Below the pieces are notes generated by a model that saw nothing but the letters and a program-made list of their open reading frames with translations, had not been told where the DNA came from and searched no databases. DNA of 64,000 bases from Alphaproteobacteria bacterium (GTDB lineage: Bacteria; Pseudomonadota; Alphaproteobacteria; Reyranellales; Reyranellaceae). The DNA lies in the NCBI GenBank assembly GCA_019635875.1, contig JAHBYP010000001.1, positions 62,001 through 126,000 of the forward strand. Reading direction: 5' to 3'. Numbering within the stretch: the first letter of the stretch is position 1; each line of letters starts with the position of its first letter. This document shows positions 12,587-20,410 of the stretch, piece after piece. Both the position numbers and the translations under genes were made by a program.

Positions 12587-12849
12587 CGCGGGCCTCCACT
12601 GGTTGGACGACCAATCTTACCCGGGCGGGTGCGAGCTTCACCAGAGCGTCGGAACGCTCGAGGTTGCCGCCCCATCCACGGCGCTGCCAGAACCAGTCCT
12701 CGTTGAGGCTTTCGGTGCGATCGATTGCGAACGACGGGCGCTGATGCGCCGCTCCACTATGCCGCGTGGGTATCCATGCTGGGCGGCTGCCAGGTCCACC
12801 CGCGATCGGTGCTGTGCCACACCGGGCTGCGCATGCCGTCCAGTGCGCG

Positions 12850-13605
12850 TCAGGGTCCGACGGCAGCCGGCGGAATATCCGGGCCGATCTGCAACGTGAA
12901 GAACCCGGCCGCCCCGCCGGCCTGGTCGCGTCCCGCGCCGATGCGCAGGTTGAGATCCGCGCCCCAGCTGGTGCGGCCCTGCACGCTCAACGCGCCGCCC
13001 GAGAACAGATACTGCGGCTGCTCCTTCAGGATCGCGTCCTTGTCGGCGAACAGCTGCAGGCTGACATCGAGATCGGTGGCGAAGCGGTACCGCCGCCCCA
13101 ACCCCACCGACAGGCCGAGCCAGCGCGAATCGAGCGCCGAGCCGGCGACGGTCCCGTCGACGCCGTCGTAGCGCGGGCGCCCGGACGGATCGACGGCACC
13201 GATCGAGAACGGCTCGCCGGTGACGACGTTGGTCGCGCCCGGAACCGTGACCGGCCGCCACAGGGCGCCCGGCCCGGCATCGCCGATCAGGCCCGCGAGC
13301 TTGTCCCACAGCGGGCTGCCGGCCGAGAGCAGGCTGTTGCGTGCCGATTGCGTCGGCGTCAGGCTCGTGTTGAGACGCAGCGCGTTCGTCATGTTGCCCA
13401 TCGCCGGCTTCAGCACGTCGTCGAGTCCGGCGAAGAGATTGGTCCCCAGCGGCCTCAGGCCGCCGCCGGGCATGTATCCGCACCAGCCCATCTGCGGCTG
13501 CAGCAACGCCGGATCGAGGGTGAGGTGAAAGTCGCCGAGCAGCCCCGTGCGCGGCGGCCGGTAGCCACCCTGCAGGAATGACGACGACAGCTGGAAATCG
13601 GACAT
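12850..13605 (-). CDS. Hypothetical protein next to the CRISPR array
   Basis: A 251-residue frame beginning MSDFQLSSSFLQGGYRP, Gly/Pro/Leu-rich. It has no signal peptide, no membrane helix, and alternating hydrophobic stretches in the second half (SRWLGLSVGLGRRYRF, LDVSLQLFADKD, GAGRDQAGGAAGFFTLQIG) that look like beta-strands, possibly a small barrel or adhesin-like fold. I recognise no family. Its start lies about 270 bp from the first CRISPR repeat, pointing away from the array. Just after its stop the same frame goes on (12766-12849) with a BNR-like motif STDRGWTW, so the stop could be a secondary truncation. Confidence 0.55.
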   Translation of the reverse strand: MSDFQLSSSFLQGGYRPPRTGLLGDFHLTLDPALLQPQMGWCGYMPGGGLRPLGTNLFAGLDDVLKPAMGNMTNALRLNTSLTPTQSARNSLLSAGSPLWDKLAGLIGDAGPGALWRPVTVPGATNVVTGEPFSIGAVDPSGRPRYDGVDGTVAGSALDSRWLGLSVGLGRRYRFATDLDVSLQLFADKDAILKEQPQYLFSGGALSVQGRTSWGADLNLRIGAGRDQAGGAAGFFTLQIGPDIPPAAVGP

Positions 13606-13834
13606 GTCGGCCTCCCCCGAACTCTGCCCACCACAGAGGCAGCGTGGGCGCGGTTCAAGGCGGAAATGAGGCGACGCTCATTCGCCCTTCGACGCCGTCG
13701 AGGGCTGAAGCCGGAGGGGGCCCTCAAGATGAAGAGGCCGTTTGCGATCGCCGCCGGCCGTGCGGTGTGTAGACGGTAAGGAAGAGCTTCCGCTTGCTGG
13801 AAAGCGTGTTGGATGCGCGCGGACGACAGTCCGC

Positions 13835-13878
13835 AGGCTGATGGTCCCGCCCTTGTGGCGGGGCCATCAGCCTTCTTT
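13835..13878 (+). terminator. Strong intrinsic terminator directly upstream of the CRISPR array
   Basis: Stem AGGCTGATGG (13835-13844) pairs with CCATCAGCCT (13864-13873), extended by inner CCCGCC/GGCGGG pairs, followed by TTCTTT. It ends at the first base of repeat 1 and reads in the same direction as the crRNAs. It would block read-through into the array, so crRNA transcription must start inside it. A second small hairpin (GCGGAC gaca GTCCGC) lies just before. The rest of 13606-13834 shows no AT-rich leader. Confidence 0.75.
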
Positions 13879-15630
13879 GCCGTGGTTTCCCTACCGACTT
13901 CCCATTGGTAGGCTGCCGACCTGCTGGACTGGCGCGACCACGAGGCCGTGGTTTCCCTACCGACTTCCCATTGGTAGGCTGCCGACCTGCTGGACTGGCG
14001 CGACCACGAGGCCGTGGTTTCTCTACCGACTTCCCATTGGTAGGCTCCCAGGGATCGCGCGGGCGTCCACCCGGCGGCCGTGGTTTCCCTACCGACTTCC
14101 CATTGGTAGGCTGTCAGCGCCGCCCATCCGCGAATGCTCATGGCCGTGGTTTCCCTACCGACTTCCCATTGGTAGGCTATCGGCACCGCGTTCCTGCCGT
14201 GGCGCCGGGCCGTGGTTTCCCTACCGACTTCCCATTGGTAGGCTCAGACCGCCGAAGACGCGCGCGCCTTCGCTGCCGTGGTTTCCCTACCGACTTCCCA
14301 TTGGTAGGCTCAGACCGCCGAAGACGCGCGCGCCTTCGCTGCCGTGGTTTCCCTACCGACTTCCCATTGGTAGGCTTCTACCTGAAGCACGTTGACAGTC
14401 GGGAAGGCCGTGGTTTCCCTACCGACTTCCCATTGGTAGGCTTTGATCTCCGCGATGATCCTGGCGACATCGGCCGTGGTTTCCCTACCGACTTCCCATT
14501 GGTAGGCTACCGCTCGGAGAGCGGATACCAGATCGCGGGCCGTGGTTTCCCTACCGACTTCCCATTGGTAGGCTGCGAAGGCGATGTTGCGCGCCGGATC
14601 GTGCGCCGTGGTTTCCCTACCGACTTCCCATTGGTAGGCTATCGACGATCTCGTCACGATCGCCGAAGTCGCCGTGGTTTCCCTACCGACTTCCCATTGG
14701 TAGGCTCGAAGGCCTGGAGGATCGGCGTCAGCGTGCGCCGTGGTTTCCCTACCGACTTCCCATTGGTAGGCTCTGCTGTCGGTCTGCGGCCGCGCGGTTT
14801 GGGCCGTGGTTTCCCTACCGACTTCCCATTGGTAGGCTGTCGTGATGTTCGTCTACCGCGACGAATACGCCGTGGTTTCCCTACCGACTTCCCATTGGTA
14901 GGCTTCGCAGGCCATCCTGCCGCTCGAGCTTGAGGCCGTGGTTTCCCTACCGACTTCCCATTGGTAGGCTGAGAATCCGCTCAAGGGCCGCGTCGAGACG
15001 GCCGTGGTTTCCCTACCGACTTCCCATTGGTAGGCTGACCAATTGGCGATGTTGACCGGCGCGTCGGCCGTGGTTTCCCTACCGACTTCCCATTGGTAGG
15101 CTGGCAACGAGGAATCGCTGACGACATACAGCGCCGTGGTTTCCCTACCGACTTCCCATTGGTAGGCTTTGAGGGGGTTTCTTGCGCGCGCCGGCCGCGC
15201 CGTGGTTTCCCTACCGACTTCCCATTGGTAGGCTTCGATCACGTTGGACAGCATGCTTTCGGCCGCCGTGGTTTCCCTACCGACTTCCCATTGGTAGGCT
15301 TTTGGAGGGGGTGTCTTGTCCATACGGACCGCCGTGGTTTCCCTACCGACTTCCCATTGGTAGGCTGCGTCGCCGGCCGAGAAGCGCGTGCCGTCAGCCG
15401 TGGTTTCCCTACCGACTTCCCATTGGTAGGCTGTCACGGGGATGACGTAGTAGGGCGTGCCGGCCGTGGTTTCCCTACCGACTTCCCATTGGTAGGCTCC
15501 TTCGGATCAGTCAGCGTCCAGTGGAGGAGCCGTGGTTTCCCTACCGACTTCCCATTGGTAGGCTATCAAGTGGTCGGAAGCGGCGAGCTTCTGAGCCGTG
15601 GTTTCCCTACCGACTTCCCATTGGTAGGCT
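13879..15630 (+). CRISPR. Type II-C CRISPR array, 27 repeats and 26 spacers
   Basis: Repeats are 36 bp, beginning GCCGTGGTTTCCC and ending CCATTGGTAGGCT. All are identical in the copies I checked except repeat 3 (14011-14046), which has C to T at 14022. All spacers are 30 bp, giving a strict 66-bp period from 13879 to the last repeat at 15595. Spacers 1 and 2 are identical, as are spacers 6 and 7, so 24 are distinct. An inner inverted repeat CCTACC / GGTAGG lies in each repeat. The tracrRNA anti-repeat at 20008-20033 fixes crRNA polarity as the + strand: each mature crRNA is spacer followed by the GCCGUGGUUUCCC end of the repeat. The array reads toward cas2. Reading frames spanning the array are artefacts of the 66-bp (22-codon) period. 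Confidence 0.98.
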
Positions 15631-15653
15631 CGCTTCGCGGCAACGGGTTAAAC

Positions 15654-15697
15654 CTGCTCTGATTTCCGCTCTCATTTGAGAGCCGAAATCAGAGCAG
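15654..15697. terminator. Bidirectional hairpin between CRISPR array and cas2
   Basis: Arms CTGCTCTGATTTC (15654-15666) and GAAATCAGAGCAG (15685-15697) are perfect complements, with an inner CGCTCTC/GAGAGC stem. The cas2 stop codon lies inside the right arm, so the hairpin sits at the meeting point of the convergent array and cas transcripts. T-tracts are weak on both sides. Confidence 0.65.
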
Positions 15698-16018
15698 AAC
15701 CATTTGCTGGGGGGCGACTCGCTCGGTTTTTTTCGCCTCGCCAAGCAGCAGACGCATACGGGCATATTGCTTATCCGTCACCTGGAGCACGCGCACGCTG
15801 CCCTTCTTCGGCAGATTCTTCGTCACGCGCTGGACATGCTTCGAGGCCGCATCCTCCCCTCGCGCCACCCGCGCGCAAACGGAAAACTGCAGCATCATAT
15901 AGCCGTCGTCCTTTAGGAAGTTGCGGAAGCGGGTCGCCGTGCGGCGCTCCGCCTTCGTGCCAACAGGCAGGTCGAAGAAGACGAACATCCACAAGACACG
16001 AGTCTCCTCGGCCTTCAC
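15689..16018 (-). CDS. cas2: CRISPR-associated endoribonuclease Cas2
   Basis: A 109-residue subunit of the Cas1-Cas2 spacer integrase. The N-terminal beta-strand VLWMFVFFDLPVGTKAERR carries the family's conserved Asp, and FLKDDGYMMLQFSVCARVARG is the typical second block. The GTG start at 16018 overlaps the cas1 stop (GTGA), and the VKAEETRVLW leader matches other II-C Cas2 starts. An internal ATG 10 codons later is the alternative. The gene is intact, unlike cas1 just upstream. Confidence 0.92.
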   Translation of the reverse strand: MKAEETRVLWMFVFFDLPVGTKAERRTATRFRNFLKDDGYMMLQFSVCARVARGEDAASKHVQRVTKNLPKKGSVRVLQVTDKQYARMRLLLGEAKKTERVAPQQMVLL

Positions 16019-16907
16019 TTGGCGAACGCCGGCAGTTCCAGCACGGTGCTGGTGCCACTGTCGATCGCGCGTACAAGTGAGGCCGCCGCCTTCTCGCTCG
16101 CCGCGAGCAGGGTCATTGTCTCGTGCGCCATGGCGCAATCGGCCAGCATGACTCCCGCCAACTTGCGGCGCTGGTCGAGCGTTAGTTCATCGCGCGCGGC
16201 GCGACCTTCGCCGATCACGCGCCAAGCCAGCACATCGACGAACGGCCGGAACGGCTCCACCATATCGTCGGCGAGATTGAAGGCGTTTGTCGCGCTGGCG
16301 TGATTGACACCCAAAGCCGGCAAGAGTCCGGCGGCGACGAGTGCTCGTGCGACGCAGGAGCGAATCACCGCATAGCCGTAATTCAGCATCATGTTCCGAG
16401 TGTCGCCCGCATCCTCGCGGCGGAACCCGTCGAACAAGCAACTCCAATACTCCTCGCAGCGCGGGCCTCTACATTGACAGTGTCGCCACTGTCGACCAAT
16501 CGCGCCATGGCGATCAGGCCGCGTGCGCCGGCGCGGCCGACTTCGCCGAGGGCGGCCGCCTGATTGACGATCTTCGCCTGCACGATCGCCTGCCACAGGC
16601 GCTTCTTGAGCGGCGTACTCATGTTCGCCTGCGCCAGCGCGATGCCGCCTTGGCGGAAGTGACGGTGAAAGGGCAGGGTAACGCCGCTCGGCGTATGGGT
16701 CGCATCGGTGGCGATCAGTGCAATACCGTTCTCCATACATGCGGAGAGCAGCGTCGAGGTCAATGTCGCGTGTGGCGCGTCGAGCACGATCCAGGCGATA
16801 TCTTCGAGTGCCAGACGTACCTCGCCGTCGTCTTGTGCGACGACGATCTGACCATCGGCGACGGTCAGGCGCGCGGACTTGCTTATGTGCAGGCCACGCC
16901 ACGCCAT
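16015..16907 (-). pseudogene. cas1: CRISPR-associated integrase Cas1, split by a single-base frameshift
   Basis: Cas1 is the metal-dependent integrase for new spacers. Here the first 152 residues (MAWRGLHISKSARLTVADG ... NVEARAAR, with catalytic Glu147) lie in one frame. The rest (YWSCLFDGFRRED ... LNYGYAVIRSCVARALVAAG, NHASATNAFNLADDMVEPFRP, with catalytic His and Asp) continues in another. The frames meet at about 16450-16455, in the run AGGAG, where one base seems to be missing. Restoring it gives about 297 residues, the normal II-C length, with all three metal ligands. As sequenced the first frame ends at 16389, before the active site is complete. The start overlaps the end of cas9 by 25 bp. 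It is either a true recent mutation or a sequencing error. Confidence 0.88.
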
Positions 16908-19900
16908 GTGCGGGTTTCTCGCTGGATTTCATGCCGTCGACCGAGGCGGTCGACCTGAAACTTCCGAAAGACCTTCAGGCTGCGCGCACCGATGCCGGTG
17001 ATCATTGCTTGCAGCGTGTCGTGTGGCGAGATCTTGATCGCGCCCGTGTTCCGATCGAGTGCGCGGAAATACCCATGGATGCATGTGCCGTCTTGCTTCT
17101 CAATCTCAAGGAACGACAATTGACTCAAGCTGAATAGGAACTCGTGATCGGCTGTAAGCGGCTCCTCCTCGCCACCGCCCCGCACATATGCGCTTGGAGC
17201 TTGGGGGAAGTCCTCTTTGGAGGCGACTTGATGCGGATAAACCGGCACCAGAAAATACTCGGTAGTGCCCCTCCTATTCGGCTTCCGGAACACGTCCACG
17301 CGCACCATCTCGCCCCGGTCGGCGGCGCCGTCGCGGATCAGCACATCGGCCTTCTTGTTAGTGGTGAGGCTCACCTTGCGGATGGGATCGCCCTTCGGCG
17401 ACAGCGGCGGCCTGTCCTTTGGTTTGCCCGCCATGACCCAATCGCGCAGCGCCGACACGACGCGGTGATTACGCTCGGCGTCTTTGATGCGGTCGAGGTC
17501 CTTCTCGTTCAGCGTCTCCACCGATTTTCGCTCATGGACAACAGGCCCATTCTCGTCTTTGCCTATGGCACGAATGGTTGCCGCATGAGCTTCTCCGCGC
17601 ACGCGTCCGCGTTCGGCCCGGCTAACGAAGATGTGTGGGAAGAGCGCATCCACGTCTTCCTTGAAGTTGGGCCACGGCATGGGAAACTTCGCGATGAAGC
17701 GGCTGGAGCCGCGTTCCTCCTCGATCTGTGCGGCGCGCGTCAGGCGGTTGAGCGCTCCTTCGGTCGTGGCCGCGACGATGAGCGCATCCAATGCGTGATG
17801 CCGGTCGTCGGGAATACGCTTACCGTCCTTGTCCTTTTTCAGACCCTGAACGCCCCAAGCGCGCCGCAACCGGTCGGTCAGCGCGCCTGGGCGCGTGAAC
17901 ACACGGCGAGAACCATCCACGGGATACATGCCTCTCAGCATGTCGGCGAGCAGACGTGTCGCATACTGTGTGTCAGTAAGATTGCGCGGTCGAAATTTTT
18001 CTTCGAGAACCTTGGCATCGCGCAGAAGGTAGTTGCGCTTCTTGCGTCCCTTGAATGCCTTGTTCGTCTCGACTCTTGTGGCAAACGCCTCCCATGCCTC
18101 TTCTGTTCGCACTTGCTTGAACCATTCGAACGGCGTCAGTCCCTTCTTGTCCTGGTTCTCCTTGGCAATGCACAGCGTCTTGTTGATGAAACTGTCGTCC
18201 CCTGATCGACTCCACGGCAGGATGTGATCGACTTGGACGCGGTTGTCCGAGGAGACGATCCAGTCCGGGTGGATCTCGCTATCCGAGTAAAAGCAGCGGC
18301 CAGCCTGTTCTTTCCATAGCTCGAAGCGCAGCAGATCCTCGGCGTTCGCGGCTTCGCGTCCAACCGTGCCCCGGTATTCTTCGCGCAGACGGTCTTTGGC
18401 CTTGTTGCGCTTCTCGATACCGCTCGTGATCTTGTCACGCTCTTCCTTGCTCTTGCCGACATCGCGCGCCAACTCGATATGAATGGCGCCTGGTAGGCCG
18501 TATTCACGTACGATCGCCCGAACTTGCCTCACGGCTTCACCGAGCGCCTTGCGGGCGACGGGATTGCCGATGGCGGAGAGATCGGTTTCGGGGCGGCGCG
18601 CGTGGTCATAGCCCGAGGCCGTGCAGGCTTCCGAATAGACGAGCCCTCTCATGAGATGCGGCAGAATATTACGTGCTGCCTTGGCCGAGATGTGACCCGC
18701 ACCCCTGAAGGTGGCGAAATCGCCCTCGACAACGCCCTTCATCAGTGCCTCTAGGACCAGCGGCTCGAAATCGATTTCCTCGAGGCCCTTGCGGATGGAC
18801 TCGGGCGCCTCACGGAAGGTGATGATTGCAGCGGCACGGTCGACCTTGTCGGGCTGGTTCAACAGCGTCTTCCAGGCATCGCCCAGCACATTGCGGAATG
18901 CCTTGGTGCCGGCGGCCTGATCGCTTGATCGCGACGCGATCTCGCGCTTCCCTTCCTCCTCACGAGGGACATCGAACGAGTCCCCATCGCCGAGCTTTAG
19001 CAGCCCGCGCAACCGCTTGTAGGTCAGCTTGATACCCGGCGCGCCGAAGTCGGCCATCGCAAGGGAGATTTCCCCAGCTGTCAGTGTTCGCTCACCACCA
19101 GCGTAGCGAACGCTCAGCGTGCATAAGCGCGACGCGAGTCGGAACCGTTCGAAAGATGGGCTGTGCTTCGCGGCGCGGCGCTCGTCAGATTCAAATGGGC
19201 AGAATCCGACCCGATCGTCGCTATCCTGCAACGGCCGTTGAAAGAACGCGGTTTCGATGAACTGGCGCTGCAGATCAGGATTCGCGATGGCGTTTCCCAT
19301 GCGCCGCTGCCGGTCGAATATCAGCACGACCTCGCGCTCCAAATCGTCGCGCAAGATGGAGCGATCAAAGTTGCCGTCGCGATTGCGCTTACGTGCGGCA
19401 TAGGTCGCATCCTTGGCGAACATTTCGCCGACTGTGCGCCAGTCCTTCAGATGCTCACGCGTCCTCTCGATCGCGCCAAGCATCTTCGATGACTCCTCGT
19501 TGGCGTTCTTGCCCCGGTCGCGCTTGCTGTTCGACTTGAAGCCGCGGTGCTTCGCGATATGGCCTAAAGCCACCGCCAGCTCCGGCCCTTCGAGAGGGCG
19601 GTTCAGCGCCTCGGCCCGCAATGTCCAGGGGTTCAGGCCCATCGCCAGCACCTTCTTCGAATCGTCGGTCAGCAGTCCGTGGCTCTTGAGCAAAGCCCGT
19701 ACCCCGTTCATCCGCTGCCTCCGGCGCTTGATGACGCGGCGCATGAGTCGGTTCTGACGTCTGATCTGATTGGTCGGCGTACGCTCCTTGGCGGTTTCCG
19801 GAGCATCGAAGCACCGAACGCCCATTGCGATGATGCGGCCGTCTCCGCTGTCGGCACCCTCAATCATCGCCCAGCCGCACGAGGCAATTCCGAGATCAAT

Positions 19901-19948
19901 GCCCAGCGTCAGACTTTCCCGCAATACGGGTTCGAAAGCTGCCGTCAT
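16883..19948 (-). CDS. cas9: Type II-C CRISPR effector nuclease Cas9
   Basis: RNA-guided DNA endonuclease of about 1,021 residues, the compact II-C size. Numbered from the ATG at 19948: RuvC-I LGIDLG with Asp18; an Arg-rich bridge helix around 63-80 (RRQNRLMRRVIKRRRQRM); RuvC-II IHIELARD with Glu492; HNH QVDHILPWSRSG with His575 and Asn589; RuvC-III HHALDAL with His718 and Asp721. All catalytic residues are present. The last ~250 residues form the PAM-interacting region and do not tell the PAM. I prefer the ATG at 19948 (GGGGGA just upstream) over a TTG at 19960. First gene of cas9-cas1-cas2; there is no csn2 or cas4, which supports II-C. Confidence 0.97.
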   Translation of the reverse strand: MTAAFEPVLRESLTLGIDLGIASCGWAMIEGADSGDGRIIAMGVRCFDAPETAKERTPTNQIRRQNRLMRRVIKRRRQRMNGVRALLKSHGLLTDDSKKVLAMGLNPWTLRAEALNRPLEGPELAVALGHIAKHRGFKSNSKRDRGKNANEESSKMLGAIERTREHLKDWRTVGEMFAKDATYAARKRNRDGNFDRSILRDDLEREVVLIFDRQRRMGNAIANPDLQRQFIETAFFQRPLQDSDDRVGFCPFESDERRAAKHSPSFERFRLASRLCTLSVRYAGGERTLTAGEISLAMADFGAPGIKLTYKRLRGLLKLGDGDSFDVPREEEGKREIASRSSDQAAGTKAFRNVLGDAWKTLLNQPDKVDRAAAIITFREAPESIRKGLEEIDFEPLVLEALMKGVVEGDFATFRGAGHISAKAARNILPHLMRGLVYSEACTASGYDHARRPETDLSAIGNPVARKALGEAVRQVRAIVREYGLPGAIHIELARDVGKSKEERDKITSGIEKRNKAKDRLREEYRGTVGREAANAEDLLRFELWKEQAGRCFYSDSEIHPDWIVSSDNRVQVDHILPWSRSGDDSFINKTLCIAKENQDKKGLTPFEWFKQVRTEEAWEAFATRVETNKAFKGRKKRNYLLRDAKVLEEKFRPRNLTDTQYATRLLADMLRGMYPVDGSRRVFTRPGALTDRLRRAWGVQGLKKDKDGKRIPDDRHHALDALIVAATTEGALNRLTRAAQIEEERGSSRFIAKFPMPWPNFKEDVDALFPHIFVSRAERGRVRGEAHAATIRAIGKDENGPVVHERKSVETLNEKDLDRIKDAERNHRVVSALRDWVMAGKPKDRPPLSPKGDPIRKVSLTTNKKADVLIRDGAADRGEMVRVDVFRKPNRRGTTEYFLVPVYPHQVASKEDFPQAPSAYVRGGGEEEPLTADHEFLFSLSQLSFLEIEKQDGTCIHGYFRALDRNTGAIKISPHDTLQAMITGIGARSLKVFRKFQVDRLGRRHEIQRETRTWRGVACT

Positions 19949-19974: not shown

Positions 19975-19980
19975 TTGACG
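19975..19980 (+). promoter_or_regulatory. Possible -35 element for the tracrRNA
   Basis: TTGACG lies about 30 nt before the anti-repeat on the + strand, inside the cas9 leader. No convincing -10 follows at 16-18 nt (weak candidates around TCAAGT or AGTATT), so only the -35 is suggested. Confidence 0.3.
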
Positions 19981-20003
19981 CAGACGGGCGATGGTGCTCA
20001 AGT

Positions 20004-20095
20004 ATTTGTGGGAAGTCGGTTGGGAAACCACGGTAAAGTGGTTATCCACTGAAGGTTCAAACCCCGGACGTGGAAACGCGCTCCGGGGTTTTCCT
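20004..20095 (+). ncRNA. tracrRNA
   Basis: The anti-repeat at 20008-20033 (GTGGGAAGTCGG, TT, GGGAAACCACGG) is complementary to repeat positions 2-27, with one U-U mismatch and one terminal G-U wobble. It is followed by a small hairpin AGTGG TTAT CCACT (20037-20050), a single-stranded linker, and an intrinsic terminator: CCCCGGA (20062-20068) paired with TCCGGGG (20082-20088), then TTTT. This is the usual order of a tracrRNA: duplex with crRNA, nexus-like hairpin, terminal hairpin. It is divergent from cas9 and lies about 60 bp upstream of its start. The exact 5' end is inferred. Confidence 0.92.
20062..20092 (+). terminator. tracrRNA terminator hairpin
   Basis: Seven-base-pair CCCCGGA/TCCGGGG stem and TTTT tail closing the tracrRNA. 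The following 20096-20410 shows no gene or clear element. Confidence 0.85.
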
Positions 20096-20410
20096 CATTT
20101 GGGGCTGCGATGAGGTGAGCGTTCAGATGCAACGCTCAGTTGCTGACCGTTGCAGCTAATCCGTTGGCCTTTGGAAGGGTATGGTGCGTGCAAGGCTTCG
20201 CGCGTTAGGCGTAGAAGCGCGCTGATGTGGCACGCTGCGGGCTGCGAGCGCCAACCACGCATGACCGCGTGAATCGGACCGCGTAACAGACGGCAATTTT
20301 GCCGATTCCATCGGCATCGGAATGCCCTGTTCGACACCGCTAGGGGTTTAAATCGCGCCCTCCACGCCACAGGCGTACACCCGCTCCAGCACCAACCGCT
20401 GGAGTCCCCG

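Follow-up and report, generated by a model that had tools for sequence, protein, structure and literature searches.

The CRISPR array at 13879-15630 of the window (the whole 64,000-nucleotide stretch of alphaproteobacterial DNA that was analyzed) is best explained by a promoter in each repeat, an insulating hairpin in front of the array and entry of new spacers on the cas2 side, and we consider this explanation as a whole very likely. That each repeat has its own promoter was proposed in a preliminary description of this DNA, and the idea is supported by the assignment of the crRNA to the + strand from tracrRNA pairing, the lack of a predicted upstream promoter, the terminator-like hairpin at repeat 1, the near-universal TAnnnT at the repeat 3' ends and the unchanged 3' ends of internal repeats. 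From these sequence features we infer that transcription is initiated by the repeats, where it starts and that the hairpin terminates.

According to the proposed mechanism, RNA polymerase would start in the following spacer, about 5-8 nt from its beginning, and the transcript would consist of a guide of about 22-25 nt and then the next repeat, whose 5' part would pair with tracrRNA, itself transcribed from a separate promoter next to cas9. Ahead of repeat 1, the hairpin would block outside + strand transcription from the array, and would thereby prevent useless extraneous crRNA from the intact repeat 1. New spacers would be inserted at the cas2 side, i.e. at the 3' end of the crRNA strand. If this is true, each spacer is expressed whatever its position in the array.

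Organization of the locus

The locus has a standard type II-C CRISPR-Cas9 layout. Only cas9, cas1 and cas2 are present, csn2 and cas4 are absent, and the array is immediately next to cas2, without a further cas gene in between. All three genes are on the - strand: cas9 (16883-19948, 1021 aa; NCBIfam TIGR01865, 606 bits), a type II cas1 (16015-16907) whose TIGR03639 halves lie in two frames as a result of one frameshift near 16452, and the cas2 ORF (15689-16138; Cas2 domain at residues 51-139, NCBIfam TIGR01573). The closest full-length Cas9 relatives are from a Reyranella MAG (79% identical) and an Enhydrobacter MAG (76%). In the two nearest relatives (L001 and L002) cas1 is intact, with the frame change of the window at the same residue. 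The frameshift sits at a short G run, and may either be real, so that adaptation is lost and the array can no longer grow, or be a sequencing error in this run.

A tracrRNA with anti-repeat and terminator, as expected for type II-C, was found on the + strand at about 20008-20097, divergent from the cas9-cas1-cas2 operon. Folding and conservation showed an anti-repeat at about 20010-20036, followed by stem-loops and a terminator (AACCCCGGA..TCCGGGGTTTT). The tracrRNA promoter at 19975-20003 (+ strand) consists of TTGACG, 17 nt and TCAAGT with TGC before it; TTGAC and TGCTCAAGT are kept in L001, L002 and L003 and the intervening bases vary. The duplex with the tracrRNA was more stable for the + strand repeat (-55.1 kcal/mol) than for the opposite strand pair (-48.8 kcal/mol), and this better pairing identifies + as the crRNA strand. 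The array is thus transcribed opposite to the cas operon and has its acquisition end at the crRNA 3' side, both in agreement with type II-C. Another candidate tracrRNA at 13760-13876 was rejected, since the anti-repeat at about 20010-20036 pairs far better.

When the array was re-measured, the coordinates and sequences first given for the hairpin and the 27 repeat ends proved right. The array has 27 repeats, each 36 nt long, and 26 spacers, each 30 nt long, with a repeat-to-repeat period of exactly 66 nt throughout. All 27 repeats end in TGGTAGGCT, and comparison of the 27 copies revealed a single variant, in repeat 3, where position 12 is changed from C to T. In repeat 1 the proposed (extended) -10 element is TGGTAGGCT at 13906-13914, with TAGGCT at 13909-13914, and all 27 repeats have it, at intervals of 66 nt. 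TAGGCT occupies positions 31-36 of the repeat, which places the -10 element in register at the 3' end. The number of 27 internal crRNA promoters suggested initially holds for the motif, but only 26 repeats precede a spacer; as repeat 27 has none after it, 26 crRNA units are possible, and these have 24 distinct spacers because spacers 1 and 2 (13915-13944 and 13981-14010) and spacers 6 and 7 (14245-14274 and 14311-14340) are identical. The two pairs are probably repeat-spacer duplications. Searches with the window spacers gave no match in phages or in the genome itself outside the array, and among plasmids the only match was a related Tistrella array. At 14418-14440 the inner palindrome of the repeat (CCTACC..GGTAGG) together with a T-rich spacer start resembles a weak terminator, so that read-through along the array could be reduced by some spacers.

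The flank on the cas2 side (15631-15745, + strand) is conserved and forms an integration-side leader, with a hairpin at 15654-15697 and then a short stem and a T-run at about 15712-15734 that overlaps the 3' end of cas2. The hairpin is conserved in relatives, including a compensatory change of a C-G pair to G-C in L069 and L076 (CTGCTG/CAGCAG in place of CTGCTC/GAGCAG). The preliminary description saw no leader, which is correct for the non-conserved 5' flank but not for the 3' side. Across arrays the last repeats are nearly perfect, which also identifies the cas2 side as the acquisition end. The hairpin at 15654-15697 directly follows the last repeat with no T-run immediately behind it; many other alphaproteobacteria have a plain terminator in the same place.

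A -10-like core at the repeat 3' end

A short motif in one repeat alone is little proof, and we therefore compared repeats across species. TGnTAnnnT, with five fixed bases, is a weak motif in a single repeat and stands out from chance only by such a comparison. Cas9-linked arrays were gathered from Pseudomonadota and a few other bacteria, giving 55 distinct repeats (52 from Pseudomonadota, 3 from others), and the arrays were oriented opposite to cas9, except for L095, which was oriented by tracrRNA pairing. The duplex energy agreed with the cas9 orientation rule in most loci, the exceptions being L007, L055, L057, L075 and L095. The results showed TAnnnT at the 3' end of 33 of the 34 distinct alphaproteobacterial repeats and at the corresponding end of the other strand in none (0/34). 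In the wider set it was found in register in 52/55 distinct repeats, or 51 if L095 is counted against the motif. Conservation was confined to particular positions: T31 and A32 were present in all 55 repeats, T36 in 52, G29 in 51 and T28 in 30, and positions 33-35 vary. The first, second and sixth bases of the -10 hexamer (T, A and T) are those that matter most in sigma-70 promoters.

An extended -10 (TGnTAnnnT) had been proposed for every repeat. In the window all 27 copies have the TG, but the full motif was found in only 27 of the 55 distinct repeats, and in close relatives the TG is replaced, with CGG, AGG and GAG in L061, L063 and L068. Loss of the TG extension in close relatives means that a -10 core is better supported than an extended -10. 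The core itself is weak on paper, as TAGGCT matches TATAAT at only 3/6 positions. A -35 at repeat positions 8-13, with 17-nt spacing, was also considered and rejected; it is inseparable from tracrRNA pairing and is not specially spared in decayed first repeats. Likewise, a terminal palindrome does not force the TAnnnT, since the palindrome covers just 0-6 of the 8 end positions and most repeats depart from it exactly at TAnnnT.

Outside Pseudomonadota, type II-C repeats, mostly of Bacillota (L005-L008, L142, L143, L145), also end in TAnnnT, and the csn2-linked II-A repeats of Bacillota, a sample of only three distinct repeats, end in TCAAAC or similar without TAnnnT. In place of TAnnnT, the repeats of L053, L124 and L127 have TATAAC or TAAAAC at the end; position 36 is a T in the last repeat of L127, which is its newest. 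L146 and L147 (repeat GTTTTGGTTCTCTGATGGATATTGATAAACTTACAC) have a Cas9 of about 1160 aa, no csn2 match and TAnnnT at neither repeat end, and may use another mode of crRNA transcription.

Sequence constraint within arrays

Among 1055 internal repeats, all 31 distinct real changes fell in positions 1-27. Positions 28-36 had none, as one further apparent change there was an N and was not counted. Under a uniform model this distribution has a probability of 0.75^31, about 1e-4. Eleven of the 31 changes come from L091, in which one copy may be rearranged, and without this locus the comparison is 20 vs 0 (about 3e-3).

Integration takes place at repeat ends, and the conserved 3' end could be a recognition site for Cas1-Cas2 rather than a promoter, especially as type II Cas1 is common to all these arrays and gives a profile match in the window. 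Yet integration is restricted to the repeat at the leader side, whereas old internal repeats are unchanged in positions 28-36 as well, and in terms of a -10 hexamer, T1, A2 and T6 are invariant and the three bases between them are free. We therefore regard recognition by Cas1-Cas2 as an improbable reason for the conservation. Because integration no longer takes place at internal repeats, and the main part of the crRNA that pairs with tracrRNA does not include positions 28-36, the simplest reason is a DNA function carried by each repeat.

In many arrays the first repeat has decayed in the half that pairs with tracrRNA and has kept the -10. First repeats had 146 changes in positions 1-27 and two in positions 28-36, with none at T31, A32 or T36. 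This pattern fits a repeat of which only the promoter half is needed, although it is partly erosion from the outer edge. Whether the repeat 3' end is held constant as a promoter on every repeat throughout type II-C, so that the oldest repeat would decay to a promoter only by losing the tracrRNA-pairing half and keeping T31, A32 and T36, is in our judgment evenly balanced.

Alternatively, a promoter ahead of repeat 1 could give one long precursor that tracrRNA and RNase III then process, in the manner of type II-A, the TAnnnT being incidental. The region 13606-13830 upstream of the array is intergenic, and a promoter that escaped recognition, e.g. one of a non-sigma-70 type, could lie there. 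A scan of both strands at 13400-16200 with a consensus of the sigma-70 type only found no sigma-70-like promoter, a hairpin of -36 kcal/mol stands directly before repeat 1, the 3' flank is conserved and the 5' flank is not, and the decay of many first repeats lies in the very half that pairs with tracrRNA. All of this speaks against a long precursor, which we judge to be very unlikely.

The hairpin in front of the array

A terminator just before repeat 1 was part of the preliminary description, and folding bore this out: a hairpin that resembles a Rho-independent terminator and its TTCTTT tail (13835-13878, + strand) abut repeat 1, which begins at 13879. The hairpin (13835-13873) has a 17-bp stem and a 5-nt loop (-36.3 kcal/mol, z -7.6), and none of 200 shuffles was as stable. 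It is thus a stem-loop with a U-tract, although the tract is interrupted (UUCUUU) and termination is predicted from the structure.

The block at 12849-13682 is 85-88% identical to four CRISPR-less relatives, and in all four the similarity ends at 13680-13682, which probably marks the edge of an inserted region carrying the CRISPR-Cas locus. Between this edge and repeat 1, the sequence at 13683-13878 had no real match in 101 genomes, and the region 13683-13874 is common to neither CRISPR-carrying nor CRISPR-less relatives. The hairpin lies outside the conserved CRISPR-Cas module.

It is possible, and only somewhat less probable than an even chance, that the hairpin ends an unrelated small RNA or an upstream gene and is irrelevant to the array, which would be compatible with promoters in the repeats. 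Its place outside the module, in a region unique among relatives, agrees with this, as does the finding that arrays are preceded by terminators hardly more often than expected by chance: terminator-like hairpins within about 110 nt upstream were found for 6/48 arrays vs 3.4 expected in shuffles, the window hairpin being the strongest of these and the closest to repeat 1. Terminators have also been reported upstream of 11-12% of II-C arrays, without enrichment over other intergenic regions (PMC12080349). Against an unrelated hairpin, a similarly placed terminator has been tested in C. jejuni (PMC12080349). Moreover, we recognised no codirectional gene for the hairpin to serve, because the conserved upstream gene (12850-13605, - strand) runs the opposite way. 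As pre-array terminators are not clearly enriched, insulation of the array by the hairpin is plausible but not a function selected for in general.

Comparison with known systems

In the type II-C system of Neisseria meningitidis, Zhang et al. in 2013 reportedly found a promoter in each 36-nt repeat, which ends in TGCTACAAT, and crRNA 5' ends that are said to form without processing. The -10 core of that repeat (TACAAT) is nearer to the consensus than TAGGCT of the window. In Campylobacter jejuni, dRNA-seq mapped the starts to the fifth position of each spacer, and an extended -10-like box forms the end of the repeats (Dugar et al. 2013, PMC3656092). Like the window, the C. jejuni II-C locus has an array opposite to the cas genes and repeats with such an end (GGTAAAAT; PMC3656092), but the tracrRNA position differs and the C. 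jejuni -10 is AT-rich. Starts within spacers were thus measured in C. jejuni, and are predicted for the window array.

Feussner et al. 2025 described II-C arrays with a promoter per repeat, acquisition at the last repeat and mutated first repeats, and suggested that the first repeat must keep its promoter function (PMC12080349). They also proposed that upstream Rho-independent terminators would act as insulators to prevent extraneous crRNA (PMC12080349). In those arrays, as in the window, the terminator stands directly before the first repeat, there an extra repeat. Unlike theirs, the first repeat of the window is intact, and protection would therefore depend mainly on the terminator.

Orientation of II-C arrays by current tools is inconsistent (PMC12638026), and TAnnnT at the crRNA 3' end would, if true, provide a simple orientation rule that needs sequence only. 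Taken together, since the mechanism is already known from C. jejuni and from Feussner et al. 2025, the window offers a good new example with comparative support rather than a new mechanism, and extends the design of one promoter per repeat to a GC-rich alphaproteobacterial lineage.
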